Virus record (IMG/VR): IMGVR_UViG_3300021598_001532
Coordinates: 1 to 22,207 of that record
Strand: one strand, 5' to 3'
Length of the DNA: 22,207 bases
Source: a virus
The notes beneath the pieces are model-generated. The model was not told where the DNA came from and searched no databases. It worked only from the letters and a program-made list of their open reading frames with translations. The translations under genes were made by a program, and so were the position numbers. Shown here in pieces: positions 4,774 through 20,926 of this stretch. The stretch's first letter is position 1. Each line of letters starts with the position of its first letter.

Positions 4774-4774
4774 A

Positions 4775-5362
4775 ATGAATGAATATTCAGGAAATTTTGA
4801 CCTAAATTCAATATCATCCCTACCAAGATGGTTTGGTAGAGTTGTGTCCAGTGTTTCGTGGCAGGATAACATTGAAGCATCGCATTTTGATCCAAAAAAT
4901 CAAAAAGGTTGGGGTTATAGATATCGTGTTAGGTACTTTGGCATACACTCGGGAAATACTGAAGAACTCCCTGATGAACAACTACCAATGGCTAATGTTG
5001 TTATGCCAGTAACATCTGGTTCTGGATTGGGTGGGTCATTTGATACGCCTGCAATACTTGCCGGAACTATTGTGACTGGATTCTTCCTTGATGGTATCGC
5101 TGGTCAAGAACCTTATATTGATGGTATCTTGATAAATTCAAATAACACTGTACCAAAGAAGCAACCACAGGGAAATATTGGTGGGTTGCAACTTTTTAAT
5201 GATACATATAAAGGAACTAACCCACAAACGGCGGCATATGTTCCTGACTCTTTACAAACAATTAAAAAGATTGAAAGACCAAAAGTTGCAAGTAATCAGT
5301 ATAAAATTATCCCCCAAAACACTCTGACCATATCTGAAATAAAAGCAAGAATTACAACATAA
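4775..5362 (+). CDS. 5: gp5-type baseplate hub OB-fold protein, without lysozyme domain
   Basis: A 195-aa protein matching the N-terminal OB-fold domain of T4 gp5. It begins with WFGRVVSSV (T4 has WFVGVVEDR), then YRYRVRYFGIHSG (T4 RVRVRVVGLH), EELPDEQLPMANVVMPVTSG (T4 PTEKLPWMSVIQPITSA), GLGGSFDTPAILAGTIVTGFFLDG, and a final strand, YIDGILINSNN. In T4 this domain sits on the gp27 trimer and is followed in the same chain by lysozyme and a beta-helix spike. Here the chain stops about 60 residues after the OB fold, in a Lys/Pro-rich tail. Lysozyme and spike are absent from the gene; a separate spike candidate lies at 7093. The family call is solid; the gene number is by homology to the T4 domain. 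Confidence 0.82.
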   Translation: MNEYSGNFDLNSISSLPRWFGRVVSSVSWQDNIEASHFDPKNQKGWGYRYRVRYFGIHSGNTEELPDEQLPMANVVMPVTSGSGLGGSFDTPAILAGTIVTGFFLDGIAGQEPYIDGILINSNNTVPKKQPQGNIGGLQLFNDTYKGTNPQTAAYVPDSLQTIKKIERPKVASNQYKIIPQNTLTISEIKARITT

Positions 5363-5367
5363 AAAAA

Positions 5368-7089
5368 ATGACAGTACTTCCCGCAGGAACTCCTCAGACT
5401 AAAGATATTGACCAATCTCCAGTAACTCACAGGCACTCCCAATCATTTGCGGAGATTTCTAAACTTGCTTGGCAACAAGATATAGATCTTAGAACCGTTG
5501 TACATATACAAAGTCCATGTAAAAGTGATAATAGTTCTATGAAAGGAATTCAGAGAACTATTAAAAATATGCAGATAGATTTGGAAAGAATAAAAAGATT
5601 TTCAAATGTTAATTCCGCTGTTGATGCATTAACCAGAGAGGACCAAGAACCTGGAAAGTCTATTAAAAGAATAGTAAATTTTTCTGCAACTGATATTTCT
5701 GGATATGTTATTAATATTCTGGGTGGTGCTCGTGGGTGGGTAATGAATACAATACAAGATAAAGTTAAAGAGAAACTTCCTTATTTTTTCCCTGGAGAAA
5801 TGCCATCCTTTATTGACAAACTAGATAAAGGTTTAAATGGAATTTCTTGTGCTTTTGCTAAAATAATTAGAGGACTTGCAAAGACTATTGGCAATCTTTT
5901 ATTGCAAATGTTGGATAAGTTTATAAATGGACCAATGTGTTTTGTTGAAAATTTCATTGGCAATTTGCTGAAAAAAATTATGAATCCAATTGAGAAGGCA
6001 ATAAAGTCTGCAGTATCACTTCTTAATGTTGCTTTGGGTAAAATTGCAAATCTTGCTGGAAGTTTATTTAACGCATTAGATTTTATCACGGGTATTTTAA
6101 ATTTCTTTAAATGTGACGATGATAAAGCGTGCCCTTCAGTTCAGGAAACAACTTTATCTGGAGCAGGTCAAAATAATCCCCAAGGAGGAGACCCAGTAGG
6201 AAAAAATCCATTCAGCAAATTTCTTTCTCCTTCAGATACTTCTAGAAGTTGTCCAACAAATCCATTACCCTGTGGACCACCAAGAGTGCAATTTTTTGGT
6301 GGTAATGGTATAGGTGCAATGGCAAACGCTATAGTCAGTCCAAATTCAAATTCAATTATTGGATTTGATATTGTTAATCCCGGATTTAGTTACCTCGCGC
6401 CACCATTTGCAAATATTGTTGACGAGTGTGGAAATGGATCTGGTGCATCATTAGTTGTTCAAACTAGACCTTCACCTAAAGGTGGATTGGAGATTAAAAA
6501 TATTGTAGTAGCTGCGCGGGGAGACGGGTACTTGCCTGCTCCAGATGGTTCTTTGGGTGGAAATGGTATCACATGGAAAGAATCCCAAGAGGGGTATGTT
6601 GTTACACCTAATGGCGATTATTTTACTGTTCCTTCTGGAATAGAACCACCAAATTTACCCCCAGATAGTGTATTTTTCCCACCAGAGTCTACTTTGGCAG
6701 TTCCATCAGATGCCACATCGTTAACTTATCCTGTTATTCTCATTATTGATGAAATTTATATTGAAGATTCTGGTTTTGGATATTTGCCAGGAGATACTTT
6801 GGAAGTTGTTCCCAATAATGGAGCAATACTTCAACCAGTGATAAATGAAAGAGAAGAAATAACACAGGTTAATATTATTAATCCTGGTTCTGGATTCACT
6901 GACATACCCGAAATCATAGTAAATTCTAATACTGGATATAACGCAAAACTTATCCCAGTTCTTAGAGCTATCCCTGTAGAGGCAATTGCAAATATTGGGG
7001 ACATTGAACCCACAACAGCAGTTGTTAGTGTAGTTGATTGTGTTGGTAGAGTTCCTCCAACAGAAACTTTTGATATAGTACCGAGATAA
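5368..7089 (+). CDS. Baseplate-region structural protein with amphipathic helices and GSGF/GYLP repeats
   Basis: A 573-aa protein that starts after an A-rich gap of five bases. Residues 1-130 are mixed. Residues 137-247 form a long run of hydrophobic, amphipathic helices (for example IIRGLAKTIGNLLLQMLDKF and SAVSLLNVALGKIANLAGSL) without a clear transmembrane topology. After a Cys/Pro-rich hinge (about 250-310) come at least four beta repeats of a phage-fibre type: NPGFSYLAPPF (about 338), RGDGYLPAP (about 383), DSGFGYLPGD (about 467) and NPGSGFTDIPEI (about 504), each followed by a strand rich in Val and Ile. It lies exactly between the OB-fold gene and the spike-like gene, where T4 gp5 has its lysozyme; no lysozyme signature is seen in it. 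The role is unknown; a virion component is likely. Confidence 0.7.
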   Translation: MTVLPAGTPQTKDIDQSPVTHRHSQSFAEISKLAWQQDIDLRTVVHIQSPCKSDNSSMKGIQRTIKNMQIDLERIKRFSNVNSAVDALTREDQEPGKSIKRIVNFSATDISGYVINILGGARGWVMNTIQDKVKEKLPYFFPGEMPSFIDKLDKGLNGISCAFAKIIRGLAKTIGNLLLQMLDKFINGPMCFVENFIGNLLKKIMNPIEKAIKSAVSLLNVALGKIANLAGSLFNALDFITGILNFFKCDDDKACPSVQETTLSGAGQNNPQGGDPVGKNPFSKFLSPSDTSRSCPTNPLPCGPPRVQFFGGNGIGAMANAIVSPNSNSIIGFDIVNPGFSYLAPPFANIVDECGNGSGASLVVQTRPSPKGGLEIKNIVVAARGDGYLPAPDGSLGGNGITWKESQEGYVVTPNGDYFTVPSGIEPPNLPPDSVFFPPESTLAVPSDATSLTYPVILIIDEIYIEDSGFGYLPGDTLEVVPNNGAILQPVINEREEITQVNIINPGSGFTDIPEIIVNSNTGYNAKLIPVLRAIPVEAIANIGDIEPTTAVVSVVDCVGRVPPTETFDIVPR

Positions 7090-7092
7090 AAC

Positions 7093-7668
7093 ATGGCAAA
7101 ATCTAAAAATTACGAAACAAAAACAACGGGAACAAAAGATGGTCAGATAACTTTTGGCAATATTCATCCTGACCAAGTGAAATCTTCTGTCATGCTTCAA
7201 GGTCAAGAGTCTCTTGAATATATTACGATAGACCAAACCGCCCCAAGAAAAAGGTGGATTACTTCTAGATGCAGGGGAAGATATCAAGTTAAATGTGGAG
7301 ATGATATTCCAAAAGATGAAATTGGAATGTGGTTTAATGCCGATAGAAGTGATATCTTAATCCAAACAAAAGGTAGACTAAGACTTGAAGCTGAAAATAT
7401 TGATATAATTGCCAGAGGTCCGGACCCTACAAAGGGTATAGTCAATATTATTTCAAACGAAAGCGTTAATATTGAAACTAAAAAATTTACTGCTAACGCA
7501 AATGAATCCATCAGTATTTTTACTGATGGTCAGATGCAACAAACCGCAATAAATATTATGCGAATTTATGGTGGTAGCATTCAAAGAATAACTTCTATGA
7601 GTGCAGAGAAAACACCATCATTGCCAATATTAGATAAAATAGTACAATTAACTAAACCGCAAGCATAA
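7093..7668 (+). CDS. Central spike-like beta-helix protein (gp5 C-terminal analogue)
   Basis: A 191-aa protein. The middle (about 78-150) alternates short strands with turns: SDILIQTKGRLRLEAENIDI, GIVNIISNESVNIETKKF, NESISIFTDG. This is the pattern of the triple-stranded beta-helix in gp5/VgrG spikes, in which every second residue faces the core. The N-terminal 60 residues include a compact CRGRYQVKCGDD segment. It follows the stand-alone OB-fold gene in the same operon, so I infer that it supplies the needle part of the hub as a separate subunit. No PAAR-type tip motif is seen. Alternative: another baseplate beta protein. Confidence 0.62.
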   Translation: MAKSKNYETKTTGTKDGQITFGNIHPDQVKSSVMLQGQESLEYITIDQTAPRKRWITSRCRGRYQVKCGDDIPKDEIGMWFNADRSDILIQTKGRLRLEAENIDIIARGPDPTKGIVNIISNESVNIETKKFTANANESISIFTDGQMQQTAINIMRIYGGSIQRITSMSAEKTPSLPILDKIVQLTKPQA

Positions 7669-7670
7669 CT

Positions 7671-8483
7671 ATGTCAAGTTCAAGTGATTTTGAATTAATT
7701 CATGGACAACTCCATGTGACAAATGAAGAATCAAAACCAGAAGCTTTAGGAAGAGGTCCAAAAAGCATTCATGGTTCTGCATATTTTCAAGCGCCAGTTC
7801 ATATCGGAAAAGATAGTGATTTTGGAAGTGTTGAAGCATCTTTAATGATTGGTAGAGAAACTAATCCAGATACACCATCAAATGCAAAAAGATCTGTGCA
7901 TGTAAAAGGTGATGTTAAGATTGAAGGTGATGGGCAAACTAGTAATGCCCTTTACGTCACTGGCACTACTACTGATGTGGTCTATATTGATGGTGACTTA
8001 TATGTGAGTGGAAAAGTAGATTGTGATAATAAAGGAAGACTCGCAGCTAGATTTTCGCAAGCAGATGCTAGACCAAAACCATTTGATATGATTCATCCAT
8101 CATTGGGAAATGGTCATCGTCTTAGATATGCATGTATTGAGGGTCCAGAAGTTGGAGTATATTTTAGGGGTAGAATAACAAATCAAACTGAAATTGAACT
8201 TCCTTGGTATTGGAAAGACTTGGTTCATGTTAATAGCATATCTGTTCAACTTCAACCAATAGGTTCTCATCAAGATATTATTGTGAAAAGATGGGATTCG
8301 GAAAAAATATATCTGCAATCAAAGAGTGCAATACCAATTGATTCTTTCTATCATGTTTATGCAGAGAGAAAGGATGTCAATGCATTGGTTGTTGAATATG
8401 ATGGTAATGAGTGGAGTGATTATCCTGATAAAGATTATAATGATCCCCAATATGCAAATAAGGTAAATACAAAGACTCTGTGA
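7671..8483 (+). CDS. Virion structural protein with strand repeats and a conserved C-terminal domain
   Basis: A 270-aa protein of a type I recognise from cyanomyovirus baseplate and fibre regions. Residues 20-125 contain fibre-like strands (GSAYFQAPVHIGKD, SVHVKGDVKIEGD, VVYIDGDLYVSGKVD). Residues 135-255 carry a conserved globular domain: PKPFDMIHPS, RLRYACIEGPEVGVYFRGR, IELPWYWKDLV, VQLQPIGSHQDI and FYHVYAERKDVNALVVEYDG. The same C-terminal domain appears at the end of other cyanophage fibre-like proteins. The function is not known; surface exposure on the baseplate is inferred. Its last codons overlap the GTG start of the oxygenase gene (GTGA at 8480-8483). Confidence 0.72.
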   Translation: MSSSSDFELIHGQLHVTNEESKPEALGRGPKSIHGSAYFQAPVHIGKDSDFGSVEASLMIGRETNPDTPSNAKRSVHVKGDVKIEGDGQTSNALYVTGTTTDVVYIDGDLYVSGKVDCDNKGRLAARFSQADARPKPFDMIHPSLGNGHRLRYACIEGPEVGVYFRGRITNQTEIELPWYWKDLVHVNSISVQLQPIGSHQDIIVKRWDSEKIYLQSKSAIPIDSFYHVYAERKDVNALVVEYDGNEWSDYPDKDYNDPQYANKVNTKTL

Positions 8484-9046
8484 AAAAATTAATTTATATT
8501 GAAGAAAATTTTTTAGATTCAATAGAGTGTAAGTCTTTTGTGGATTTTGCTATCGAAAATAAAGATAAAGAAGTTCCGTATGGTAGCGAAAGTAGGGGTG
8601 GAGATACTTTTATTACTAATTTGGATTACGGTGGCAATCTGTATCAGGGGGGAATACCAGATTGTACTAACTTGGAAAGTATAAAAAGTCCAATAATTTC
8701 TTCAATTACAAAAATTTGTAAGTCTTTTGATGAAAATATTAAATTAGACTATGCAACGATTGTGAGATGGCCTGAAGGAACTTTTATGAAACCTCATTAT
8801 GACAATTCCTATCAAGATAATCCTGATGTTTTTGCTGTATTAGTATACCTAAACGACTCTTATAAAGGTGGATATACTTGCTTTGAGGAATTTCAAGTGA
8901 AACCACAATTAGGAAAATTGGTTATATTTTCCAACTCACAATATCTTCATCACGTTACAAAAGTTGAGGACAGTGAAAGATTTGTCCTCTCCCTCTGGTA
9001 CAGTGGGTTGACACGGACCCCTGACCGTGCTATGATACATGGGTAA
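8480..9046 (+). CDS. 2-oxoglutarate/Fe(II)-dependent oxygenase (prolyl hydroxylase-like)
   Basis: A 188-aa protein starting at GTG 8480, overlapping the previous stop by four bases and so translationally coupled to it. The iron site is visible: H106-Y-D108 in the strand FMKPHYDNS, and H158 in YLHHVTKV; R167 in ERFVLSLWYS is the expected 2-oxoglutarate anchor nine residues later. The core strands (FAVLVYLNDSYKGGYTCF, GKLVIFSN) match the double-stranded beta-helix of the P4Hc/PKHD family. Such enzymes are common in cyanophages; substrates are unproven, with hydroxylation of virion or host protein or of a nucleobase as options. Coupling to a structural gene favours a virion protein as substrate (inference). 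The last twelve codons contain a sigma70 promoter and may be a non-conserved extension. Confidence 0.87.
   Translation: MKKLIYIEENFLDSIECKSFVDFAIENKDKEVPYGSESRGGDTFITNLDYGGNLYQGGIPDCTNLESIKSPIISSITKICKSFDENIKLDYATIVRWPEGTFMKPHYDNSYQDNPDVFAVLVYLNDSYKGGYTCFEEFQVKPQLGKLVIFSNSQYLHHVTKVEDSERFVLSLWYSGLTRTPDRAMIHG
9008..9036 (+). promoter_or_regulatory. Sigma70-type promoter inside the 3' end of the oxygenase gene
   Basis: TTGACA at 9008-9013 and TATGAT at 9031-9036 are separated by 17 bases: a perfect -35 box, a 5/6 -10 box and ideal spacing. Transcription should start near 9043, just before the 60-aa gene at 9062. The spacer holds a five-base dyad (CACGG 9012-9016 with CCGTG 9025-9029) that could be an operator or chance. 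Confidence 0.75.
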
Positions 9047-9061
9047 TCAACGGACGAACGA

Positions 9062-9244
9062 ATGCAAGACGAGTACCTCTCACGCTGCGTTGTGGACCCC
9101 ATCAAACGAACCGTGTACCTTTACTCCAATGAAGGAGATGAAAAGCAAGTGACCTGTGATACGGTAGAAGAATTTATGAATGTACTAGACTTCGTTCGTG
9201 CTACAGTGGATGAAGAGACTCTCTCATACGCAAATCCACTTTAA
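9062..9244 (+). CDS. Small conserved phage protein, unknown function
   Basis: A 60-aa acidic protein, the first gene after the 9008-9036 promoter. It has a two-strand start (CVVDPIKRTVYLYSNEGDEK), then a helix (CDTVEEFMNVLDFVRATV) and an acidic tail ending in SYANPL. I recall similar short proteins in cyanophage genomes, always hypothetical. No catalytic or DNA-binding motif is visible. Its promoter type suggests expression early in infection. Confidence 0.65.
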   Translation: MQDEYLSRCVVDPIKRTVYLYSNEGDEKQVTCDTVEEFMNVLDFVRATVDEETLSYANPL

Positions 9245-9245
9245 G

Positions 9246-9304
9246 TTTCAAAAAAGGTCGAAAAAAATCTCCCGGTAAAAATTGCCCTTATTACTTTTTT
9301 GAAA
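9246..9304. repeat. Imperfectly understood 11-bp inverted repeat between two small genes
   Basis: TTTCAAAAAAG at 9246-9256 is the exact reverse complement of CTTTTTTGAAA at 9294-9304, with 37 bases between. It fills the gap between the 60-aa and 67-aa genes and ends just before ATG 9308. With its AT-rich stem it is too weak for a classic terminator; it might fold over the start of the next gene. Chance in AT-rich DNA is possible. Confidence 0.4.
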
Positions 9305-9307
9305 AGT

Positions 9308-9511
9308 ATGGTTTATAAAATTTCATACAAAGACCTCAAAGAGGAACCAGTTAAGACAACTCCAGAAAACGTGAAAGAGGCAAATGAGGCACTCTTTGCA
9401 GCAAAGTGGAATCTCCCTAAAGCAGCAAAGCACTGCGGAATGTCACAAAAAGAAATGAAGTTGACATTCTGGGAGTATATCAAGTATAATCCTATTACTT
9501 ACGAGGCGTAA
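9308..9511 (+). CDS. Small protein with helix-turn-helix-like segment
   Basis: A 67-aa protein from ATG 9308; an upstream in-frame TTG at 9299 would add three residues and is less likely. After a basic N-terminus (MVYKISYKDLKEE) come two helices separated by a turn, EALFAAKWNLPKAAKHCGMS and QKEMKLTFWEYIKYN, with the spacing of a homeodomain-like or FIS-type helix-turn-helix (the WNLPKAAKHCGMSQKEM part resembles a W-x-x-x-x-A-A-x-x-x-G-x-S pattern). It could be a small DNA-binding regulator, but no target is known. A consensus promoter lies within its last 17 codons. I recall this protein as conserved in cyanomyoviruses. Confidence 0.7.
   Translation: MVYKISYKDLKEEPVKTTPENVKEANEALFAAKWNLPKAAKHCGMSQKEMKLTFWEYIKYNPITYEA
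9461..9490 (+). promoter_or_regulatory. Consensus sigma70 promoter inside the 67-aa gene, upstream of tRNA-Leu
   Basis: Both hexamers are perfect: TTGACA at 9461-9466 and TATAAT at 9485-9490, with an 18-base spacer. Start of transcription is expected near 9497, about 24 bases before the tRNA-Leu gene. It should be read by unmodified host RNA polymerase and drive the tRNAs and following small genes early in infection. Confidence 0.75.
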
Positions 9512-9520
9512 GTTTTTTAT

Positions 9521-9593
9521 GGGCGTGTAGTCCAGCGGCAGAGACAGGGCGCTTAAAACGCCTCCAGGGTCGGTTCGAATCCGACCACGCCTA
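9521..9593 (+). tRNA. tRNA-Leu(UAA) with short variable loop
   Basis: A 73-nt cloverleaf without encoded CCA. Acceptor GGGCGTG (9521-9527) pairs with CACGCCT (9586-9592, one G-U), discriminator A9593. D arm GTC/GAC; anticodon stem GGGCG/CGCCT with loop CTTAAAA, giving anticodon TAA at 9554-9556; T arm GTCGG-TTCGAAT-CCGAC. TTA codons are abundant in the AT-rich late genes here. Odd point: the variable region is only five bases (CCAGG), whereas leucine tRNAs normally have a long variable arm. Confidence 0.9.
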
Positions 9594-9604
9594 TGAGGTT
9601 CTTC

Positions 9605-9613
9605 CTCTAAATA
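9605..9613 (+). promoter_or_regulatory. Possible T4-type late promoter (CTCTAAATA)
   Basis: CTAAATA at 9607-9613 resembles the late promoter motif of T4-like cyanophages. It lies 21 bases before the 89-aa gene start, with a GAAAGGA ribosome-binding site at 9621-9627. It could give that gene a second, late expression phase. The motif is short and may be chance. Confidence 0.35.
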
Positions 9614-9634
9614 AACAAAAGAAAGGACTATTCT

Positions 9635-9904
9635 ATGAAATACAGAATAGATGCCAGATACGTTTGGTATAATCGCGGAACACAAATTGTTCTGCTGTAT
9701 TTCATAAATCAAATTCCCTTTACTTTTGACGATTTGCCAGACGAATCAATATTCGATTTGGAATTAATCGAATTAGCAGATAACGAAAGAAGATTTGAAC
9801 CAGAAGACCTTTATCAGGCATCATACTACTTAATGCTTGAAGAATGTCATCCTCTCTTATATGAGTTGGAACTGGAAAATCCAGAAATGTTGCCTGTTGA
9901 TTAA
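9635..9904 (+). CDS. Small acidic protein between two tRNA genes, unknown function
   Basis: An 89-aa protein with a good GAAAGGA ribosome-binding site seven bases before its ATG. The N-terminus is basic and aromatic (MKYRIDARYVWYNRGTQIV); the rest is strongly acidic with many Leu, Glu and Asp residues (LELIELADNERRFEPEDLYQ; LLYELELENPEMLPVD), suggesting a small helical protein. I do not recognise a family. It is read between tRNA-Leu and tRNA-Thr and ends one base before the latter, so all three probably share a transcript. Confidence 0.65.
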   Translation: MKYRIDARYVWYNRGTQIVLLYFINQIPFTFDDLPDESIFDLELIELADNERRFEPEDLYQASYYLMLEECHPLLYELELENPEMLPVD

Positions 9905-9905
9905 T

Positions 9906-9977
9906 GCCCTTGTAGCTCAGTGGTAGAGCAACGGTTTTGTAAACCGTTGGTCGCTGGTTCAAATCCGGTCGGGGGCT
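9906..9977 (+). tRNA. tRNA-Thr(UGU)
   Basis: A 72-nt cloverleaf without CCA. Acceptor GCCCTTG (9906-9912) pairs with CGGGGGC (9970-9976, two G-U pairs); D arm GCTC/GAGC; anticodon stem ACGGT/ACCGT with loop TTTGTAA, anticodon TGT at 9938-9940; T arm GCTGG-TTCAAAT-CCGGT with wobble pairs. Discriminator T9977. It would read ACA, common in the fibre genes. A small hairpin (GAGTT 9979-9983 with AACTC 9989-9993) follows it. Confidence 0.92.
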
Positions 9978-9998
9978 TGAGTTCATAAAACTCCAAAA

Positions 9999-10157
9999 AT
10001 GTCACTTATTTCACAAACTGACCGCGAGATGGTCATTGAAGCACTTGAATATTATGTTCAGAAACTTAAGGAAGATAACTGCACTCCTGCCTCTATCAGT
10101 GCATTCCAAACACTCCTTAACTGGGTCCAACTGGAGCACTTCAAACATGAAAGTTAA
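9999..10157 (+). CDS. Very small helical protein, unknown function
   Basis: A 52-aa frame from ATG 9999 to TAA 10155-10157, beginning MSLISQTDREMVIEALEYYV and continuing through QKLKEDNCTPASISAFQTLL to LEHFKHES. It looks like two amphipathic helices linked by a short CTPAS turn. It begins 21 bases after tRNA-Thr and overlaps the next small gene by 11 bases, a layout that favours a real gene. I recall similar short proteins in cyanophages. A longer frame on the same strand from 10036 overlaps it and seems to be its shadow until 10147. Confidence 0.6.
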   Translation: MSLISQTDREMVIEALEYYVQKLKEDNCTPASISAFQTLLNWVQLEHFKHES

Positions 10158-10330: not shown

Positions 10331-10972
10331 ATGAAATCTGACTTTTATATAGATAGGGTAGGCAAAGAAGAAATAAAAGAACTTCTTTATACCTATCATT
10401 ATCTAAAAGACGAATCAAAAGATTTCAAAAGTGGATATAATTACTCTCTTTACCGCAAATCATTCACAGATGTCCTTAATATTGGCGGGTCTGTTGGTGT
10501 TTGTATTTTTACTGGTCTCCCAGTTCCAGAAATTGCCGTAGGAGCATTTGGATTAAGTCGTAATGAACAACAAGGAATATTTGAACTCTCAAGACTTTGT
10601 ATTCATCCAGAAGTTCAAAAAGAAGAGTATAATATCACATCCTGGTTTGTAAGTCGTTGTATCAAGAGGTTTAGGAAAGATGCCCGCGTTTCTGCAATTC
10701 TTAGTTATGCTGACTCTAATCACCACGCTGGAACTATATACAGAGCTTGTAATTTTCAATACTACGGTCTAACAGAACCCAAAAAAGATTTTTACTATAC
10801 TGATGGAACAAAACATTCTAGGGGTAGCGTCAAGGGTGCTGATGGTGAGTGGCGTAGTAGGAGTCGTAAACATCGGTATCTTATGGTTTTTGACAAGAAA
10901 CTCAAAGAAAAGTTGACGTGGAAAGAAGAGTCGTGGTATAATAATCAAGACGATACTGAATCGTTACAGTGA
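10331..10972 (+). CDS. Mom-like DNA adenine-modification acyltransferase
   Basis: A 213-aa protein with the layout of phage Mu Mom, a GNAT-fold enzyme that turns adenine into N6-carbamoylmethyl-adenine. Visible blocks: VPEIAVGAFGLSRNEQQGIF (central strands), ELSRLCIHPEVQKEEYNITS followed by WFVSRCIKRF, AILSYADSNHHAGTIYRACN followed by FQYYGLT, and the C-terminal GEWRSRSRKHRYLMVFDKK. The ELSRL...SWFVSR and SYAD...H.GTIYRA pairs are the family's most conserved parts. In Mu the change protects phage DNA from host restriction; the same is inferred here. No methylase or com-like activator gene is visible in the window. The gene closes the small-gene cassette and is followed by a strong terminator. 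Family call from remembered motifs. Confidence 0.8.
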   Translation: MKSDFYIDRVGKEEIKELLYTYHYLKDESKDFKSGYNYSLYRKSFTDVLNIGGSVGVCIFTGLPVPEIAVGAFGLSRNEQQGIFELSRLCIHPEVQKEEYNITSWFVSRCIKRFRKDARVSAILSYADSNHHAGTIYRACNFQYYGLTEPKKDFYYTDGTKHSRGSVKGADGEWRSRSRKHRYLMVFDKKLKEKLTWKEESWYNNQDDTESLQ

Positions 10973-10990
10973 CCCGAAAAGTGTGACTTC

Positions 10991-11013
10991 AAAACCTCCC
11001 TTGTGGAGGTTTT
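10991..11013 (+). terminator. Rho-independent terminator after the Mom-like gene
   Basis: AAAACCTCC (10991-10999) pairs perfectly with GGAGGTTTT (11005-11013) around a five-base loop, CTTGT. The stem has five G-C pairs and ends in Ts, continuing TTTTGTTG. It separates the small-gene cassette from the fibre block. Confidence 0.88.
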
Positions 11014-11020
11014 GTTGTAT

Positions 11021-11028
11021 GATAAATA
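11021..11028 (+). promoter_or_regulatory. T4-type late promoter (GATAAATA) for the large fibre gene
   Basis: GATAAATA at 11021-11028 differs by one base from the T4 late consensus TATAAATA. It lies just past the terminator and 30 bases before the ATG of the large fibre gene, the expected position for a late structural gene. Confidence 0.65.
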
Positions 11029-11058
11029 ATCCATAACGGAACTATAAGTATTAATAAG

Positions 11059-14000
11059 ATGGGTCTTTCACGTCTCGATAATTTTCTGAAATCAGTACGC
11101 GGAACGATTTTATATGTTGATCCAAATAGTATTGACTCTACAGATAGCATTGAAAATCAGGGTAATAGTTTAACTAGACCATTTAAAACTATTCAGAGAG
11201 CATTAATAGAAGCTTCTAGATTTTCTTATCAAGCAGGAATTGATAATGATAGATTTGGAAAAACTACAATTGTTTTGTATCCAGGAGACCATTTAGTAGA
11301 TAACAGACCTGGATGGATACCATACGGAAATAATACATATCTTCTTAGAAATGGAACAACCTCTTCAGATTTTCCTCCCTTAGACTTAAATTCAAATTTT
11401 GACTTATCTTCTTCAGAAAACCAACTCTACAAATTTAATTCTGTTTATGGTGGTGTTATAGTTCCTAGAGGAACTTCAATCGTTGGACTTGATTTAAGAA
11501 AGACAAAAATTCGACCATTATATGTACCTAATCCAGAAAATCCAAACGTAGAATCTTCTGCAATTTTTAGAGTAACTGGTTCTTGTTATTTTTGGCAGTT
11601 TACGTTTCTAGATTCTGACCCAAATTCTTTTGCATATTCCGATTATTCATCAAGTACTTTTGTTCCCAATTTCTCTCATCATAAACTTACTGCATTTGAG
11701 TATGCTGATGGTGTAAATCCTGTAGTTATTGATGATAGTTTTGCCACTTATTATTCTGGTAGAACTGATCTTAAGATGTATTATGAAAAGATTGGTCTTG
11801 CTTATGGACAATCATCTGGGAGAGAAATTCAACCTGATTACCCATCAACATCTCTTGATATTCAACCAAAAGTAGATGAATATAGAATTGTTGGTTCTCG
11901 TGGAGTTGAAGTTGGTATTTCTAGTATTCGTTCTGGAAATGGCTCAGTAACTAGCACAACAATTACTGTCGATCTTCAGCAACCAGTTAGTGGTCTGGAG
12001 GTTGATACTCCAATTAAGATTTCTGGAGTAGATGCTTTAGGATTTAATGGACAATATGTAGTAAGTAAAGTTAATAGTTCTACACAAGTAGAATATAGAG
12101 TTCAGAATGCACCAACAGTTCCCCTTCCCGGCAGTGGTTCTGCAAACCTTAGTATTGTTGTAGATACTGTCACTTCTGCTTCTCCATATATCTTTAACTG
12201 TTCATTGCGTTCTGTATATGGAATGTGTGGACTGCTTGCTGATGGAAGTAAAGCAGATGGATTTAAGAGTATGGTTGTAGCCCAATTTACTGCTGTTGGA
12301 CTGCAAAAAGATCGAAATGCTTTTGTGAAATACAATCCTACATTGGGATTATATCAAGATAGCACAGCATCTGGTAATGAAAATATTACATCAGATATTT
12401 TAGCAAGATATAAACCAGAATATTCAAACTACCATGTAAAGTGTAAAAATGATGCATATCTCCAATTAGTATCTGTATTTTCTATTGGTTATTGTGAGCA
12501 ATTTGTTGCAGAGAGTGGTGGTGATCAATCTGTCAACAACTCGAACTGCACTTTTGGAAGTAGAGGACTTGTTTCTTCTGGATTTAAATCAAATGCGTTT
12601 AAAAAAGATGATATTGGGTACATAACTCATATTATTCCACCAAAAGTAATAGATTCTTCAGAAATAAATGTAGATTATTATTCTATTGATGTACCTAAAA
12701 CTTTAAGTGTTTCAAATTCTGGAAGGTTATACTTATACAATCAAAATAATGAAGCACTACTTCCCGATAGTGTAATTGAAGGATATCGTATAGGTGCAAA
12801 ATCTGGAGAAACTTTAAACCTCACTTTAACCAGAAGTGGAGTTTCTACAGAATATTCTGCAAAAGTGGTAATGCCACTCACAACATCTACTTCTTTGGAA
12901 AAGATTTTTTATGTTGGAAGGAATTCAGTTGGAGTTAATAGTATAACTTCAAATATAATTACTTTTACTGCGCCTCACACCTTTGCAAATGGAGAAACAA
13001 TAAGAATCGTATCGAATGATGGACATCTTCCCGATGGAGTAGACCATAATCAAATATATTATGCTATTACTACCGGAATTTCATCCAATACCATTAAAAT
13101 AGCTAAATCATTAAATGATGCAATTGGGCTAAATGAAATAGATATTAACAATCGTGGTGGAATACTAAAAGTTGTTAGTAGAGTATCTGACAAGAATAGT
13201 GGAGATTTGGGACATCCAATACAATGGGATTCCTCAAATAATCAATGGTATGTAAATGTATCATCTGCTTCTAGCGAAAATACATTGTATTCGAGAATTG
13301 TTGGTCTGGGAACAACTTCTTTGGGCCAAGCAACACCAAAGACATACATCAAGAGAATTCCTGATAATAGAAATCCATTAGATACAATTTATAGAGTTAG
13401 GTATGTAATTCCTGCAGATTCGCCATTTGTAGCAAGTCCACCTCTTAATGGATATGTAATTCAAGAGTCTAATAGTTCTATAGAACCAACTTCATTGGAA
13501 GTTGGATACCAATTTAATCCTTCCGGTACTACTTTAACAAATTCTACACAACTAAGAAATCAAAGACTCATTGCGGGTGCTACATGGGAATCTGGTGTAG
13601 CTAAAGTCGTTACAGAATTACCTCATGGTTTGGAAATAGGTTCTAAAGTTGAAATATTAAATGTAAAGAGTACTAATAATGAATCTGGAATTGCAAATAC
13701 TTCATTTAATGGCACTTTTGTTGTTTCCGGTATTAGTAGTGCAAGAGAATTTTATATACCCGTTAAAAATAATCCAGGTACTTTTACTAATAATACTTCA
13801 CTGAGAGATACGACTTCACCATACTTTAAGAAAAAAGAATTTTCAAATACTTACTTAGTATATCAAAGTGAAGAAATTCAAAGATATGTTCAAGGTGAGA
13901 GGGATGGAATTTATTACTTATCTGTAGTAAATGCCTCAAATTCCCCAACAACTTCTCCTTTTACATCTGAAAAATACTTACAACCAATTAAAAATCTCTA

Positions 14001-16920
14001 TCCACAAACAAATAGAGATAATCCAGCATCTGATCCAAAATCAGCAAAATCATTTGCACTGTCTTCTCCTATAGGACAAGTTGTTATTAATGAACCACAA
14101 AATAGTATTACTAAAGAAACTTTAGAGAAAAAGTTATTAGATTTGCATGTTGGTGTTGGAGTTACTGATGTGATTTCTAATTCAGTGGGAACTTCTCATA
14201 CTTTCTATACTAAGATAGATCATGGATTTAATCAATTAACTGGAGTAACCATAGTAAATGGTGGAAATGGATATGGTACTGGTAGTGGTAGTGTTGAGTA
14301 TTTTTATAACTGCAGATTAGTTGGTTATGGAGAATCAACATCTGGGAAAAATGCAACTGCTAGAGTTGCTGTTAGTGCTGCGGGTACTATTTTTGATATA
14401 AAAATTATGGATGGTGGTAGTGCATATGGAATTGGCAACACCATGACAGTTGTTGGCATTGCTACAACGACTTCCTTTGTCCCCGCATCAATTGTATCGA
14501 GTAACATTAATTCTAATATTGGCGATACTTTAAGTTTTGTTGGAATTAATGTTGATGAATACGAATCATACAATAATCTTTACAGAATTGTAGGAATATC
14601 TACTGGTGAACATAAAAAAATACAGGTTTCATCTGCTTCAACTATTCAAAATCCTTCTGTAACTGGTCTTGGAGTAACAATTACTTTGGGTTGTGGTTTA
14701 GTTTTAACCGGACAAAGTTTGAATATATTATCAATTTCTTATAATAGATTTACTGGATTAGCTACAGTTACTACACAACAACCTCATGGATTATTTAGAA
14801 ATAGTTCTATTACTTTTGGTGGCGCTCAACAATCTTTCTACAATGGAAATTTTGTAGTTAATAATGTTGTTGGTCTTTCTACGTTTATTGTTAATTTTGG
14901 CATTAGCACGACAACTCCATCAACATCTGGCACTATATTTGGTTATATAAACGGTTTTTCTGCTGGTGGTGGAAATGTTACTAGGTCAAATGAAAATCTT
15001 TTTGGAAGACTAGTATCTCCATATGCAGGTATTACTACTACACTATCTGCTGCAATTACTGATTTAAATGCTAATACAATAAGTATTTCAAATGTCACTA
15101 ATCTAAGTTTAAATGTTGGAGATTATCTTCAAATAGATGAAGAGATTGTTAGAATTAGGAGCACAGTAACTGGAAATCCTGTTTCAGTTTTTAGGGGATT
15201 ACTTGGAAGTAGTAAGTCAACACATGTAAATGGTGCTGTTGTAAAAAGAATTAATCCAAGACCTATAGAATTCCGTAGAAACTCTTTAATTAGAGCGTCT
15301 GCACATACCTTTGAATACGTTGGATATGGCCCTGGCAATTATTCAACATCATTGCCAGATAAGCAGCAAAGAATCTTAACCGAACAGGAAGAAGTTTTAT
15401 CACAATCGGTTAAGAAAAATGGTGGTATGGTTGTATTCTCCGGAATGAATGCCGATGGTAGTTTCTATACCGGAAATAAAAAAATAAATGCAACCACAGG
15501 ACAAGAAGAGTTTGTTGAAACCCCAATACAAACGACAGTTGGAGAAGATTTTACCTCCGGTCCAAATGTAGGGTTTAATGTAATATCACCTATTGATGTA
15601 AATGTTAAGAATTCTATTCGAGTCGATGGTGGGCCAGAAAATAAAGTTATTTCTAAATTTGATGGTCCTGTCATTTTTAATAACAAAATTGTTTCTTCTT
15701 CAGAGAAAGGTATTGAATCTAATTCTTTACTATTGAAAGGAGACCAAAATATATCTAGAAAGTATACTGTAGGTATTTCAACGCCAACAGTTGCCGGAAA
15801 TCCTGGAGATGTTACATATAATGCAATTCCGGCAACAAATGATTATATTGGATGGGTATACACCTCGAATAATAGATGGGAAAATTTTGGATATATTGGA
15901 AACTTTGGCGTTGGGGTATCTTCATCAGGTTCTTATGTTGGTTTTTCCACCCTAATTAACTTTAGATCGGGTCTTGGTGCCACGATAACTTCATCATATG
16001 ACACTGTTAGTGGAATTACAACTTTAACATTTAGTTCAAATCCTCTTCGTGTTGGTGTTTCTACTGGATTGGGTTCCAACAGAACTTTTGTTGGAGTTGC
16101 TACGGAAATTAACTTTGTTGGATATGGTGTTACTATATCTGCAGTTCAAAATTCTGGAATAGCGAGTATTACATTTGATGCGACAGGTGGCGGAACTGGA
16201 TATCCCGGACTTCCTTTGAATTCTCTTCAATATAATGATGGTGGATTCTTTAGAGGTTCTTCCGCATTATCTTTTAATGGTACAAATCTTTTTGTAGGAA
16301 ATGCTCTAGGAATCAATTCTTCATCACCTTCAACAAGATTGGATATTGTTTCTACATCGGGTGGTTCTGTACGCATTAGATCGACAAGTACTTCTGGAAA
16401 TATTGTCAGAATTGACAGCAGAAATCCGGATGATACAACAACTCCTCTTGTAGTGGATTTTAATGGTAATGTTGGAATTAATACCCCAACTCCATTGGGA
16501 GCTTTAGATGTTACTGGAAACTTAGTTGTTGCTGGTGAAATTAGAATATATGAATCTGATAGGAGTAATTATATTGGAGTAAATGCGCCAACTTTAAATT
16601 CTAACTACACTTGGACCCTTCCAACTACAGTTGGTACTGCTGGAAGTATTTTATCGACAAATGGTTCTGGTACTTTAATTTGGTCTTCAGCCTCTTCTGT
16701 TGTTAGTGGCGTATTGACAAGTACTGACTTCTTAAATGAAGGGTCAACAAATCTTTATTTCAGTGAAGAGAGAGTTCAGGATGCTATTGGTGCCGCAATT
16801 AATTCTGGAATTCAGACAGGAATTAGCGTTACTTATGATGATGCAAACAATAGAATCAATTTTGACAATAGTTTCTCACTATATCCATATACCACTCGCG
16901 GATTTAGTATTCCTATTTGA
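11059..16920 (+). CDS. Giant tail-fibre-like structural protein (1953 aa)
   Basis: A modular fibre protein. Residues 17-60 hold a beta-helix entry motif seen in pectate-lyase-like phage fibres (GTILYVDPNS ... RPFKTIQRALIEASRF). The body has repeated PHGL-type units in which a G-x-x-V-x-I strand is followed by FNG-x-[YF]-V-V: about 310-340 (GFNGQYVV), 853-890 (LPHGLEIGSKVEI, SFNGTFVV), 1240-1275 (QPHGLFRN, FYNGNFVV). A segment at about 1409-1452 (RASAHTFEYVGYGPGNY, LPDKQQRILTEQEEVLSQS) is one I know from many cyanophage fibres. The C-terminal 350 residues contain GINSSSPSTRLDI and GINTPTPLGALDV units and a YFSEERVQDAI motif, then end abruptly in RGFSIPI. No S74 chaperone domain is visible. Start ATG 11059 follows a late promoter; the ribosome-binding site is weak. 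Role: virion fibre for host contact, by family resemblance. Confidence 0.85.
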   Translation: MGLSRLDNFLKSVRGTILYVDPNSIDSTDSIENQGNSLTRPFKTIQRALIEASRFSYQAGIDNDRFGKTTIVLYPGDHLVDNRPGWIPYGNNTYLLRNGTTSSDFPPLDLNSNFDLSSSENQLYKFNSVYGGVIVPRGTSIVGLDLRKTKIRPLYVPNPENPNVESSAIFRVTGSCYFWQFTFLDSDPNSFAYSDYSSSTFVPNFSHHKLTAFEYADGVNPVVIDDSFATYYSGRTDLKMYYEKIGLAYGQSSGREIQPDYPSTSLDIQPKVDEYRIVGSRGVEVGISSIRSGNGSVTSTTITVDLQQPVSGLEVDTPIKISGVDALGFNGQYVVSKVNSSTQVEYRVQNAPTVPLPGSGSANLSIVVDTVTSASPYIFNCSLRSVYGMCGLLADGSKADGFKSMVVAQFTAVGLQKDRNAFVKYNPTLGLYQDSTASGNENITSDILARYKPEYSNYHVKCKNDAYLQLVSVFSIGYCEQFVAESGGDQSVNNSNCTFGSRGLVSSGFKSNAFKKDDIGYITHIIPPKVIDSSEINVDYYSIDVPKTLSVSNSGRLYLYNQNNEALLPDSVIEGYRIGAKSGETLNLTLTRSGVSTEYSAKVVMPLTTSTSLEKIFYVGRNSVGVNSITSNIITFTAPHTFANGETIRIVSNDGHLPDGVDHNQIYYAITTGISSNTIKIAKSLNDAIGLNEIDINNRGGILKVVSRVSDKNSGDLGHPIQWDSSNNQWYVNVSSASSENTLYSRIVGLGTTSLGQATPKTYIKRIPDNRNPLDTIYRVRYVIPADSPFVASPPLNGYVIQESNSSIEPTSLEVGYQFNPSGTTLTNSTQLRNQRLIAGATWESGVAKVVTELPHGLEIGSKVEILNVKSTNNESGIANTSFNGTFVVSGISSAREFYIPVKNNPGTFTNNTSLRDTTSPYFKKKEFSNTYLVYQSEEIQRYVQGERDGIYYLSVVNASNSPTTSPFTSEKYLQPIKNLYPQTNRDNPASDPKSAKSFALSSPIGQVVINEPQNSITKETLEKKLLDLHVGVGVTDVISNSVGTSHTFYTKIDHGFNQLTGVTIVNGGNGYGTGSGSVEYFYNCRLVGYGESTSGKNATARVAVSAAGTIFDIKIMDGGSAYGIGNTMTVVGIATTTSFVPASIVSSNINSNIGDTLSFVGINVDEYESYNNLYRIVGISTGEHKKIQVSSASTIQNPSVTGLGVTITLGCGLVLTGQSLNILSISYNRFTGLATVTTQQPHGLFRNSSITFGGAQQSFYNGNFVVNNVVGLSTFIVNFGISTTTPSTSGTIFGYINGFSAGGGNVTRSNENLFGRLVSPYAGITTTLSAAITDLNANTISISNVTNLSLNVGDYLQIDEEIVRIRSTVTGNPVSVFRGLLGSSKSTHVNGAVVKRINPRPIEFRRNSLIRASAHTFEYVGYGPGNYSTSLPDKQQRILTEQEEVLSQSVKKNGGMVVFSGMNADGSFYTGNKKINATTGQEEFVETPIQTTVGEDFTSGPNVGFNVISPIDVNVKNSIRVDGGPENKVISKFDGPVIFNNKIVSSSEKGIESNSLLLKGDQNISRKYTVGISTPTVAGNPGDVTYNAIPATNDYIGWVYTSNNRWENFGYIGNFGVGVSSSGSYVGFSTLINFRSGLGATITSSYDTVSGITTLTFSSNPLRVGVSTGLGSNRTFVGVATEINFVGYGVTISAVQNSGIASITFDATGGGTGYPGLPLNSLQYNDGGFFRGSSALSFNGTNLFVGNALGINSSSPSTRLDIVSTSGGSVRIRSTSTSGNIVRIDSRNPDDTTTPLVVDFNGNVGINTPTPLGALDVTGNLVVAGEIRIYESDRSNYIGVNAPTLNSNYTWTLPTTVGTAGSILSTNGSGTLIWSSASSVVSGVLTSTDFLNEGSTNLYFSEERVQDAIGAAINSGIQTGISVTYDDANNRINFDNSFSLYPYTTRGFSIPI

Positions 16921-16929
16921 TTGCCCCAA

Positions 16930-17259
16930 TTAACCAAGTTCTGGTATTACTACGATATTATACGAAGTAATACCAGTTGCTGAAAATGTTTGCGTTGGTG
17001 CTAACATTATTTCTGTTGGAAGAGCTGCTGCAGTACCGGTTAAATCTAGAGTTAGTGAGTTGTTTGAAGATGTTGAAGATGCGCTGGTATAAGCTAGATT
17101 TCTACCTATCGCAGATAAACCTGTGCTACTTACAGAAACTCCAGCCCAACTGATAGAAATATCAGTACCACCCATGTAATTTATTATTACCCTTACATTT
17201 TGCCCGGTGTTATTTGTATATCCAACATCAGTTGAACCACTTAATACTTGAGAAGCCAT
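16930..17259 (-). CDS. Small adhesin-like phage protein on the opposite strand
   Basis: A 109-aa protein encoded against all its neighbours. It begins MASQVLSGSTDVGYTNNTGQ and is rich in Ser, Thr, Gly and short beta strands (VRVIINYMGGTDISISWAGV, IMLAPTQTFSATGI), ending YNIVVIPELG. It looks like a compact beta-sandwich adhesin or fibre-tip protein; I recall relatives near tail fibres of cyanomyoviruses. It ends nine bases from the stop of the giant fibre and starts in the divergent late-promoter region, with a CTAAATA motif on its own strand. No clear Shine-Dalgarno sequence. A role as fibre tip or attachment co-factor (like T4 gp38) is inference only. Confidence 0.7.
   Translation of the reverse strand: MASQVLSGSTDVGYTNNTGQNVRVIINYMGGTDISISWAGVSVSSTGLSAIGRNLAYTSASSTSSNNSLTLDLTGTAAALPTEIMLAPTQTFSATGITSYNIVVIPELG
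16941..16976. repeat. Perfect 11-bp inverted repeat at a convergent gene junction
   Basis: CTGGTATTACT (16941-16951) is the exact reverse complement of AGTAATACCAG (16966-16976), 14 bases apart. It encodes part of the C-terminus of the minus-strand gene and lies 21 bases past the stop of the giant fibre. It may act as a bidirectional terminator stem or RNA-end stabiliser; there is no T-run on either side. Confidence 0.65.
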
Positions 17260-17284
17260 ATTGTTTCAAAAATACTTTTTTTAT

Positions 17285-17291
17285 TATTTAG
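17285..17291 (-). promoter_or_regulatory. Late promoter for the minus-strand gene
   Basis: Read on the minus strand, CTAAATA occupies 17291-17285, continuing as CTAAATAATA, 25 bases before the ATG at 17259-17257. It forms a back-to-back pair with the plus-strand TATAAATA, whose 5' end is only five bases away. Confidence 0.5.
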
Positions 17292-17295
17292 TTTT

Positions 17296-17303
17296 TATAA
17301 ATA
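17296..17303 (+). promoter_or_regulatory. T4 consensus late promoter (TATAAATA)
   Basis: TATAAATA at 17296-17303 matches the T4 late consensus exactly and lies 31 bases before the TTG start of the second fibre gene, in an intergenic region. Confidence 0.75.
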
Positions 17304-17318
17304 ACTAAAAAGAAAAGC

Positions 17319-17326
17319 AAGGGGAG
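17319..17326 (+). promoter_or_regulatory. Strong ribosome-binding site deciding a TTG start
   Basis: AAGGGGAG lies eight bases before TTG 17335. The GTG at 17328 is too close and in a frame that stops after 17 codons. The TTG gives MGINKNFVVKHGLEV, the typical N-terminus of cyanophage fibres, so TTG is the real start. Confidence 0.75.
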
Positions 17327-17334
17327 AGTGAACC

Positions 17335-18087
17335 TTGGGTATAAACAAAAACTTTGTAGTAAAACATGGTTTAGAGGTTAACTCAAATCTCATTGTTGCT
17401 GATGCAGATACTGGTAGAGTTGGTCTGGGAACCACAAATCCCGCAGCAGATTTAGAGTTATATTTTCCACCCAAAGCTAAATTATCTGTTAGAAGCACTG
17501 AGGGAGAATCCTTTTTAGATATTGATTCTGGAATTACTTCAACTTCTTATTTGAATTTTAAGCAAAATGGAGTTTTGAAGGGAAATATTTCTTTCAATTC
17601 TCATACTTTAGATGTTTTAGAAATAAATTCTTCAACAGATAAAGACGTTGTTCTCGCAACCGGTGGTGGTAAAGTTGGTATAGCAACAACAAATCCATCT
17701 TCAGAATTGACAGTTTCTGGAGATGTTTTTGTTTCCAACAATATTACTGTAAATGGCATTTCAACTTTGTCCGGAATTACTACTATTTCGGAAACATTAT
17801 TTTCAAATCAATTAAGTATTTCTGGATTTTCTACATTTAATGATAATGTTAACTTAATCCAAGATTTATATGTAGGTGGGAATACAACATTAAGTGGAAT
17901 TAGTACATTTGTTGGATTTTCTACATTTAATGATAATCTATATGTTGCAGGAGTCTCTACATTCTCTAATACTATTGATGCAAACAATGGAGCAACAATT
18001 GATAATGTAAGAATAGGTGTTGCGGATGATAATGAAATTGATACCTCTTCAGGAAACCTAACACTCTTCAGGAAACCTAACACTTAA
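17335..18087 (+). CDS. N-terminal half of a frameshifted tail-fibre protein
   Basis: A 250-aa frame from TTG 17335, supported by a strong AAGGGGAG site and the family-typical start MGINKNFVVKHGLEV. It contains two GLGTTNP/GIATTNP fibre units (GRVGLGTTNPAADLELYF at about 23-40; GKVGIATTNPSSELTVSGDV at about 112-131) and a set of STF-rich strand repeats (about 142-205: GISTLSGITTI, GFSTFNDNVNL, GISTFVGFSTFNDNLYV). These resemble the triple-beta shaft of T4-like fibres. The natural frame ends at about residue 243 (SSGNLTL); the final seven residues (FRKPNT after L) come from the second copy of a 19-bp tandem duplication, which shifts the frame into a TAA at 18085-18087. The product should be a shaft without receptor-binding end. 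Confidence 0.75.
   Translation: MGINKNFVVKHGLEVNSNLIVADADTGRVGLGTTNPAADLELYFPPKAKLSVRSTEGESFLDIDSGITSTSYLNFKQNGVLKGNISFNSHTLDVLEINSSTDKDVVLATGGGKVGIATTNPSSELTVSGDVFVSNNITVNGISTLSGITTISETLFSNQLSISGFSTFNDNVNLIQDLYVGGNTTLSGISTFVGFSTFNDNLYVAGVSTFSNTIDANNGATIDNVRIGVADDNEIDTSSGNLTLFRKPNT
17823..17937 (+). repeat. 25-bp direct repeats spaced 90 bp apart in the fibre shaft
   Basis: The same 25 bases occur at 17823-17847 and 17913-17937, exactly 90 bases (30 codons) apart, coding for GFSTFNDN both times. Recombination between them would remove or add one 30-residue shaft unit in frame. Confidence 0.75.
18045..18084 (+). repeat. 19-bp tandem duplication causing a frameshift
   Basis: The unit CTCTTCAGGAAACCTAACA stands at 18045-18063 and again, identical, at 18064-18082, with two further matching bases. 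Because 19 is not a multiple of three, the second copy shifts the reading frame by one and brings a TAA at 18085-18087. Perfect identity points to a recent event. Confidence 0.95.
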
Positions 18088-18580
18088 TTCTTTTGATGGC
18101 ACAGTAATTGTTGACGACCAGTTATCGGTATCTGGAGTATCTACTTTTAATAACAGAGTTATTTTTAACAGCACAAATTCCATTCAAATTCCTGTTGGGA
18201 CAACAGCACAAAGAGATTCTGTTGGTGTAGCTGTAACTGGACAAATCCGATATAACACTGAATTCTCAACCTTTGAAGGTTATGGACCTGGTGGTTCTTG
18301 GGGTTCTCTTGGTGGTGTTAAGGATGTTGATGGCAACACCTATATTATTCCAGAATCATCTCCTGGAGCAAATGAAAATATTTTATTCTTCTACAATAAT
18401 GGTTCATTATCCGCTACAATATCATCCACTTCCACAAATTTTAACACTGACGCAAATATTAGTGGTGTTGTAACTGCAACAAATTATTATGGAGAAGGTG
18501 GTTCATTAACTTTAGGAACTCCAACAGATTCTAGTATTACTAGCAACGGGGCACTCAATACTCTTTCTGGAAGTACTAAG

Positions 18581-20926
18581 TTGGTTGATAGTATTGATGA
18601 CCTCAACGAACTTGCATTTAATATTATAAGAAATACTGCAGTCACTAATGTAGATTTCTCTTCAAATTCATTAGCTGGAGGTTCTCCACTATCAATTACA
18701 CTATCGGTTACAAGTTCTGGAAACGCTAATCGTTATGATGTTGATTGGGGAGACGGTACAACAACATCAAACTATACATCTGCTTCTATTCCACATACAT
18801 ATACCCAACCTGCTGGTGGACAGTTCTCAATATCTTTAGTTGCTAAAAATAATTCTGGAATTGGTGCAGGAAGCAGTTATTCTACTGCAAAGAGTAATTA
18901 TATTACAGTTTATACGCCAAATCCAGTGGTTACTTTTGATTTGTATAGAGCATCTTCTGGGGGTTCAGTTCTTTCTGGAAATGATTTATATGTAGTTGAA
19001 GGGCAATCACTGTACTTAGATAATAATACTTCAAATACAAGTGGAGCAACAGTCAATTATACAATGAATTGGGGGGATGGTTCATCAAATGATTCTATTG
19101 CAAACAATACTGCTAATGGTGGAGCAGATGTTTCTGCTTCAAGACTTCAGCATACTTGGTCCGAGGGAACAAATAGTTCTACAACTAGAGATACGCTTAC
19201 TTTAACTTTAAACGCACATAACACTGCAGACCCTGCCGTTATTCCCACTAACGGAACTGCATTGTTGAAAGTTTACGATGATGCTCCTGCAGCTCCAGAT
19301 GGATTAAGTAGTAAAACATTATCTAATGTCACTAGTACAGGGACAAATCCAAGACTTGTTTCTGGATTTACTGATAATACTGGCGGAACTACTTTATCCG
19401 CAGGGAATGATGTTACTCGTGTAACTGGTGGAACTGCTGAAGCCACGGCAACTTCTTCGTTTGCATATAATGCAAATAGTGGAACTCTTACAGCACATGT
19501 AAACAGTTCCTCCGATGGTTCCCGAGTATTAACTAGTGGTGATGATTCTGGAACATATACAAGTTTGGTAATTACAGAAGAGAGTGATTATCAGTTATTG
19601 AATTCTTCTGGTTCAACTACAACTTTTGCCTCAAGTATCTATTATCCTGGGTTGTATAAAGGATTTAAGGCAAAAGTTTCAAAAGCAGTTTCTGCTTTAA
19701 GCGTTGGTGTGAATAGTATGAGATTGCTTCATAGTGACACTGGTAATACAAACGCAGTGCAGTTTGTTAAGGATGATGTAACTGCCACACCTGTTGTAAG
19801 TATTTCGACTGCAACACTTGCAGAAAATGTTGCTGGTACTTATCGTTATGTTTCTGGTATTCCATATTACAACACTGGTTCACCAACTCTAACTTTATCC
19901 GGATTAACGGTTACTAATTTAACAGGACAAACTTACACTAACCAAACAAACATTGTTGAAGTTGACACTGGAACAAACCAAGAGGGAACCTCCAGTGCAG
20001 CTACACCAGATACTGATTATACATATACTCAAATTAATGGTCCTTCAAGTATGTTGAGTGGAGGAATACCTATTGCTAATGTTGGGGTGTCTTCCCCATA
20101 TGCATTGGGTAACCTAACAGTTCCTATTACAACATCAAGTGTAAGAACTATCGATAGAGTTAGAGTTCGTGCTAAGAATGTAAATGGAACCAGTAGTTAC
20201 GCAAGTGATATTGCTACTAATATTCAAGTTCATACTGCAGCGCAGAGTGAAATTAGTGAAATTTCAATAGCAGTTCCTTCTGGACTTGGTGATGGAACTT
20301 ATACTGATAATGGAAAGAGAATTTATGATTTTGGCCCTGGAGTTACTACGACAACTCCTTCTTATAATGGAGCAACTAATTTCTATACTAACAATCCATA
20401 TTCCGAATCATCTTCTCCGGCAGGAATTACTACAACAGCAGAAGCAGTTGTTAGATTGGGTGCTATCACTCACAATCAAGTAAATTATTCTACTGGATAT
20501 CTTCCAGTTGGTCCAGATTTTTCATCAGGAAGAAGTGGAACTCAGTATTTTACTTTTGCGTTTAGAAGAAGAGTTGTTGCTAACTTTGATATTAACATTA
20601 CAAGTTCAACTGGTGTCGCTGGTGTTTGGATTGCTGCTCCAGGAACAAGTATAGATACTACAAGTGGATTAAATGGTTGGTTAAGAGCAGATACTGCTTA
20701 TGGAGGTTCTGGAGTTCCTGGTAGTGGGCCGGGTGGAAATGGTTCTGATGGTTGTGCTTTCACTAATGGAGATAGAATTCTTGCATCAACATCTTTAAGT
20801 GGTGGTTATACTATGACACTAGGTAGCGAAAACATGAGTAATGCTACTGGTAATGTTGTTCTTATAAGAATTGCTTTGAACTCAGGGCAATCCGTAACAA
20901 GTCTTAGTATAGGAGCTGCAGCGTAA
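18581..20926 (+). CDS. C-terminal part of the frameshifted fibre, with PKD domains and a glycine-rich tip
   Basis: A 781-aa frame if counted from TTG 18581, but no ribosome-binding site precedes it and the frame stays open back to 18062, so it is the continuation of the fibre begun at 17335. Two PKD-like Ig folds are visible near the start: RYDVDWGDGTT at 51-61 and TMNWGDGSS at 161-169, each with the W-G-D-G turn, and a HTYTQPAGGQFSISLVAKN strand pair. The middle is Ser/Thr-rich beta structure. The last 110 residues (FAFRRRVVANFDINITSS, GVAGVWIAAPGTSID, GGSGVPGSGPGGNGSDG, SVTSLSIGAAA) form a probable receptor-binding tip that I recall from other cyanophage fibres. Unless frameshifted back, this part is probably not made. 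Confidence 0.75.
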   Translation: MVDSIDDLNELAFNIIRNTAVTNVDFSSNSLAGGSPLSITLSVTSSGNANRYDVDWGDGTTTSNYTSASIPHTYTQPAGGQFSISLVAKNNSGIGAGSSYSTAKSNYITVYTPNPVVTFDLYRASSGGSVLSGNDLYVVEGQSLYLDNNTSNTSGATVNYTMNWGDGSSNDSIANNTANGGADVSASRLQHTWSEGTNSSTTRDTLTLTLNAHNTADPAVIPTNGTALLKVYDDAPAAPDGLSSKTLSNVTSTGTNPRLVSGFTDNTGGTTLSAGNDVTRVTGGTAEATATSSFAYNANSGTLTAHVNSSSDGSRVLTSGDDSGTYTSLVITEESDYQLLNSSGSTTTFASSIYYPGLYKGFKAKVSKAVSALSVGVNSMRLLHSDTGNTNAVQFVKDDVTATPVVSISTATLAENVAGTYRYVSGIPYYNTGSPTLTLSGLTVTNLTGQTYTNQTNIVEVDTGTNQEGTSSAATPDTDYTYTQINGPSSMLSGGIPIANVGVSSPYALGNLTVPITTSSVRTIDRVRVRAKNVNGTSSYASDIATNIQVHTAAQSEISEISIAVPSGLGDGTYTDNGKRIYDFGPGVTTTTPSYNGATNFYTNNPYSESSSPAGITTTAEAVVRLGAITHNQVNYSTGYLPVGPDFSSGRSGTQYFTFAFRRRVVANFDINITSSTGVAGVWIAAPGTSIDTTSGLNGWLRADTAYGGSGVPGSGPGGNGSDGCAFTNGDRILASTSLSGGYTMTLGSENMSNATGNVVLIRIALNSGQSVTSLSIGAAA

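Follow-up and report, generated by a model that had tools for sequence, protein, structure and literature searches.

A baseplate-attached tail fibre gene in an environmental virus contig is broken by a perfect tandem duplication of 19 bases. The doubled unit is probably an assembly or library join in which a 19-base overlap was left uncollapsed, and it is likely not present in the phage genome. The window analysed here is the whole IMG/VR virus contig, 22,207 bases of environmental DNA. Its genes make up the tail and baseplate set of a T4-like, cyanophage-type myovirus, and the broken gene lies directly behind a 1,953-aa tail fibre gene. The features around the break are listed in Table 1.

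Table 1. Features of the fibre gene and the duplicated site (window coordinates)
Feature	Position	Strand	Remarks
Upstream half, baseplate-attached tail fibre gene	17335-18087	+	Conserved N-terminal stretch followed by beta-repeat modules; stop after 250 aa
32 bases coding for the recurrent motif ...NEIDTSSGNL...	18030-18061	+	Exact copies in L091 and L092
First copy of the 19-base unit CTCTTCAGGAAACCTAACA	18045-18063	+	TRF and direct scan; end of contig L090 at 18064
Second copy of the 19-base unit	18064-18082	+	Match extends 2 bases, to 18084 (TRF and direct scan)
TAA stop	18085-18087	+	Met solely through the frame change
Downstream half of the fibre gene, frame 2	18088-20926	+	About 940 codons, zero stops; weak PKD-like domain; PHROG 8578 C-terminal region

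Duplicated unit and reading frames

TRF and a direct scan both identified a perfect tandem array with a period of 19 at 18045-18084, across which 21 consecutive bases each equal the base 19 positions further on. This array is the only perfect two-copy tandem repeat with a period of at least 10 in the window, and when the window was Markov shuffled (40 copies), the longest shifted self-match was 11 to 13 bases (shift, <300). The copy-to-copy junction is confined to 18063 to 18065, and CT on both sides of the single unit provides 2 bp of flanking homology. A 25-base direct repeat at 17823-17847 and 17913-17937, whose copies lie 90 bases apart (30 codons, in frame), is an ordinary fibre repeat module.

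Frame 1 opens at a TTG at 17335, downstream of a Shine-Dalgarno-like AGGGGAG, and runs to the TAA in Table 1. Since 19 mod 3 is 1, the extra unit shifts frame 1 into frame 2, which is open from just past 18061 to a TAA at 20924-20926. The first-pass annotation had described two identical units, a frame change and a stop, and every checkable detail of that description proved right by TRF and direct scan. It had also reported that the downstream half lacks start signals; indeed, the earliest frame 2 start codon, a TTG, does not occur until 18581, some 500 bases into the frame, and no ribosome-binding site for it was visible on inspection.

The base rate of such repeats was estimated from 1.9 Mb of related contigs, in which almost all perfect tandem pairs with a period of at least 14 have periods that are multiples of three. 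The other exceptions (in contigs L127, L213 and L220) are intergenic or lie at gene ends, and a long frame is broken by none but the pair in the window. This singles the pair out as anomalous, and the base rate fits an error and a fresh mutation alike.

Homologues of the fibre gene

The upstream half matches PHROG 8215, "baseplate wedge initiator," and its repeat modules resemble other baseplate wedge families. Its conserved N-terminal stretch (GINKNFVVKHGLEVN...) stands behind a large tail fibre gene, the arrangement of the cyanophage type (PHROG 8215 and 529), and the order is the same in contigs L030 and L031. The last ~540 residues of the downstream half (19288-20926) share 33 to 36% identity with Caulobacter phage tail proteins, e.g., those of CcrSC and phiCbK. 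Among relatives, this C-terminal region is joined to many different N termini, making it a widely exchanged fibre end. Searches of solved structures by sequence with both fibre halves gave no match.

The nearest full relative, IMGVR 3300008120_000093 (L030), has 82% DNA identity to the window over the whole region and keeps its TTG start and Shine-Dalgarno sequence. L030 and its near copy L052 carry one 19-base unit rather than a repeat tract, and their fibre is encoded in a single frame of 1,191 aa, in agreement with the 1,190 aa that the first-pass annotation had counted for the rejoined frame. Beyond the break, the window and L030 share 94% amino acid identity. The dN/dS ratio between them is 0.18 upstream of the break and 0.07 downstream, where there are no stops; judged by these values, the coding region past the break is still under strong purifying selection, without decay. 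Because of that low downstream ratio and the absence of stops, the break, if real, would be very recent. The larger genes of the window other than the broken one have matching frames in the L030 contig (e.g., 1,953, 573, 195 and 191 aa). A baseplate hub/lysozyme-like gene at 4775-7089 also occupies two frames (195 and 573 aa), and it was rejected as a second gene break, being a natural pair that the L030 contig carries as well.

Elsewhere among the relatives of the downstream half, a single frame links the C-terminal to an N-terminal part, save where the contig is cut. A break or natural gene end at the window's stop was absent from every relative examined, and a natural end at 18087 was rejected, since the homologues have neither such an end nor a separate downstream gene. 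With relatives that have a single unit and a single frame, and none that ends at the window's stop, the comparison indicates that the fibre gene is broken in this contig and is not naturally split. The earlier description of a broken fibre gene thus holds.

Origin of the duplication

Only one other contig of the same population reaches the site, and it ends there. This contig, L090 (IMGVR 3300021599_001469; 12,715 bp), comes from another IMG/VR dataset, is 100% identical to the window over 11116-18064 and has one mismatch in ~12.7 kb aligned. It terminates at 18064, where one copy of TCTTCAGGAAACCTAACAC has its final base, within the three-base junction interval, as expected of a false duplication made in assembly; by our arithmetic, the chance of a contig ending within 18063-18065 is roughly 3 in 10^4. 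This exact coincidence of the junction with the end of an otherwise identical contig from a separate dataset is why we favour an assembly artefact. Two contigs or fragments would each reach into a recurrent fibre motif and would have been joined without collapsing their 19-base overlap TCTTCAGGAAACCTAACAC, and the real fibre gene of the phage would be one open frame, like that of its relatives. The single 1,191-aa frame of L030 and L052, the strong purifying selection on the downstream half and the matching frames of the other larger genes all argue for a join.

The motif around the site, NEIDTSSGNLT, recurs in many phage fibres. Its 32-base stretch has exact copies at 1620-1651 of L091 and 3661-3692 of L092, both of which are without other DNA similarity to the window, and it is a recurrent module that may also be a recombination point or an assembly break point. 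A degenerate form of the motif was found in at least 120 IMG/VR contigs, the counts representing a sample of contigs that are partly related. In 7 of the 120 listed contigs, L090 among them, a contig end is no more than 50 bases away from it, versus 1.0 expected under even placement. This excess, which is suggestive rather than exact, points to assemblers tending to break at the motif and so supports a join. The doubled motif was present in none of the 120 listed contigs, and a degenerate pattern for the doubled form, limited to this phase, recovered the window's own copy as a positive control and had zero matches in the rest of IMG/VR. This absence is also consistent with a join; a recurrent, motif-specific duplication was rejected on the same counts.

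Several observations speak against a join. The junction contains no Ns, reads spanning it would be needed in a pure de Bruijn assembly, and the related 1.9 Mb hold no other uncollapsed, gene-breaking duplication of at least 14 bases, so that such an artefact would be rare. To our knowledge, a 19-base overlap does not equal k - 1 for any common assembly setting. L090 is itself imperfect, as it lacks 105 bases (window 9990-10094) and 220 bases (window 10896-11115) with blunt joins. Through the 220-base gap, a Mom-like gene loses its end and the 1,953-aa fibre gene its start. A third contig of the population, L224 (100% identical over 4188-10025), has the window sequence across the first breakpoint, and the alignment of the window to L030 is continuous through both gap sites; on the strength of these two alignments, the gaps appear to be assembly errors or deletions of L090 itself.

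A true tandem duplication that arose recently and is probably damaging, carried by some or all of the phage population, is a serious though lesser possibility. Slippage or misalignment at the 2 bp of CT homology would have copied 19 bases, the fibre would be lost past residue ~245, and fitness would probably be lower. The copies are perfect, as expected of a fresh event, and the single unit is flanked by CT at both ends. The end of L090 could also be explained, since a mixture of genotypes would end a contig near the site when one-unit and two-unit reads fork its assembly graph. However, such a fork would end the contig at 18065 and not at the observed 18064, a difference that slightly favours a join. 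In addition, IMG/VR yielded no other same-population contig that runs across the site in the one-unit or the two-unit form and would reveal a mixture, and the downstream half is free of decay. Of the three origins that the first-pass annotation had proposed, an assembly artefact is thus the one favoured by the end of L090, and a recent knock-out comes second.

The third, a reversible on/off switch, is very improbable. Here, the duplication would be real in a fraction of the population, and gain or loss of one unit by slippage would alternate full-length and truncated forms of the receptor-facing fibre end in a lytic, cyanophage-type virus. The frame logic is correct: a 19-base unit in two copies lies within a gene, a change in copy number alters the frame, and a tandem unit of such length could in principle be lost again. 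Yet a two-copy 19-mer reverts rarely compared with known phase-variable tracts, and a single pair with 2 bp of flanking homology looks like an ordinary one-off duplication. In the off state, a lytic phage would lack the distal portion of a fibre that is conserved, and neither the 120 listed motif contigs nor the full IMG/VR collection, scanned at this phase, contains a second case. Tandem repeats that switch phage fibres were also looked for in the literature, as was the IMG dataset 3300021599, with no direct match for either. Least probable of all, and hardly credible, are two natural genes or programmed frameshifting at the repeat to give one product: frames 1 and 2 do overlap by ~25 bases, but frame 2 has no start signal, in no homologue does an upstream gene end or a separate downstream gene begin at this point, the single frame in L030 and L052 contradicts both, and programmed frameshifting was rejected for want of a recognised shift-prone motif at ACT TAA T.

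Known systems and implications

The gene belongs with the baseplate-attached fibres of freshwater or marine cyanophage-type myoviruses (PHROG 8215 N-terminal, PHROG 8578 C-terminal), with which it shares gene order, TTG start and Shine-Dalgarno sequence; it differs from the nearest of them, IMGVR 3300008120_000093, which has one unit and an uninterrupted frame. Slipped-strand phase-variable adhesins likewise carry, within the adhesin gene, a unit whose length is not divisible by three, whereas the window has two copies only, no second example and no evidence of alternating states. False (under-collapsed) duplications have been described in vertebrate genome assemblies, some of which went back to gaps or contig ends in previous assemblies (PMC9516828). 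As in those cases, sequence is written twice in the window, but the duplication is far shorter (19 bases), lies in a metagenome virus contig without Ns and was judged here from contigs alone.

A real duplication would mean that an uncultured phage carries a naturally knocked-out fibre. In the case of an assembly error, the warning would be that metagenome virus contigs are fragile at shared fibre motifs, where adhesins can falsely look broken or switchable.
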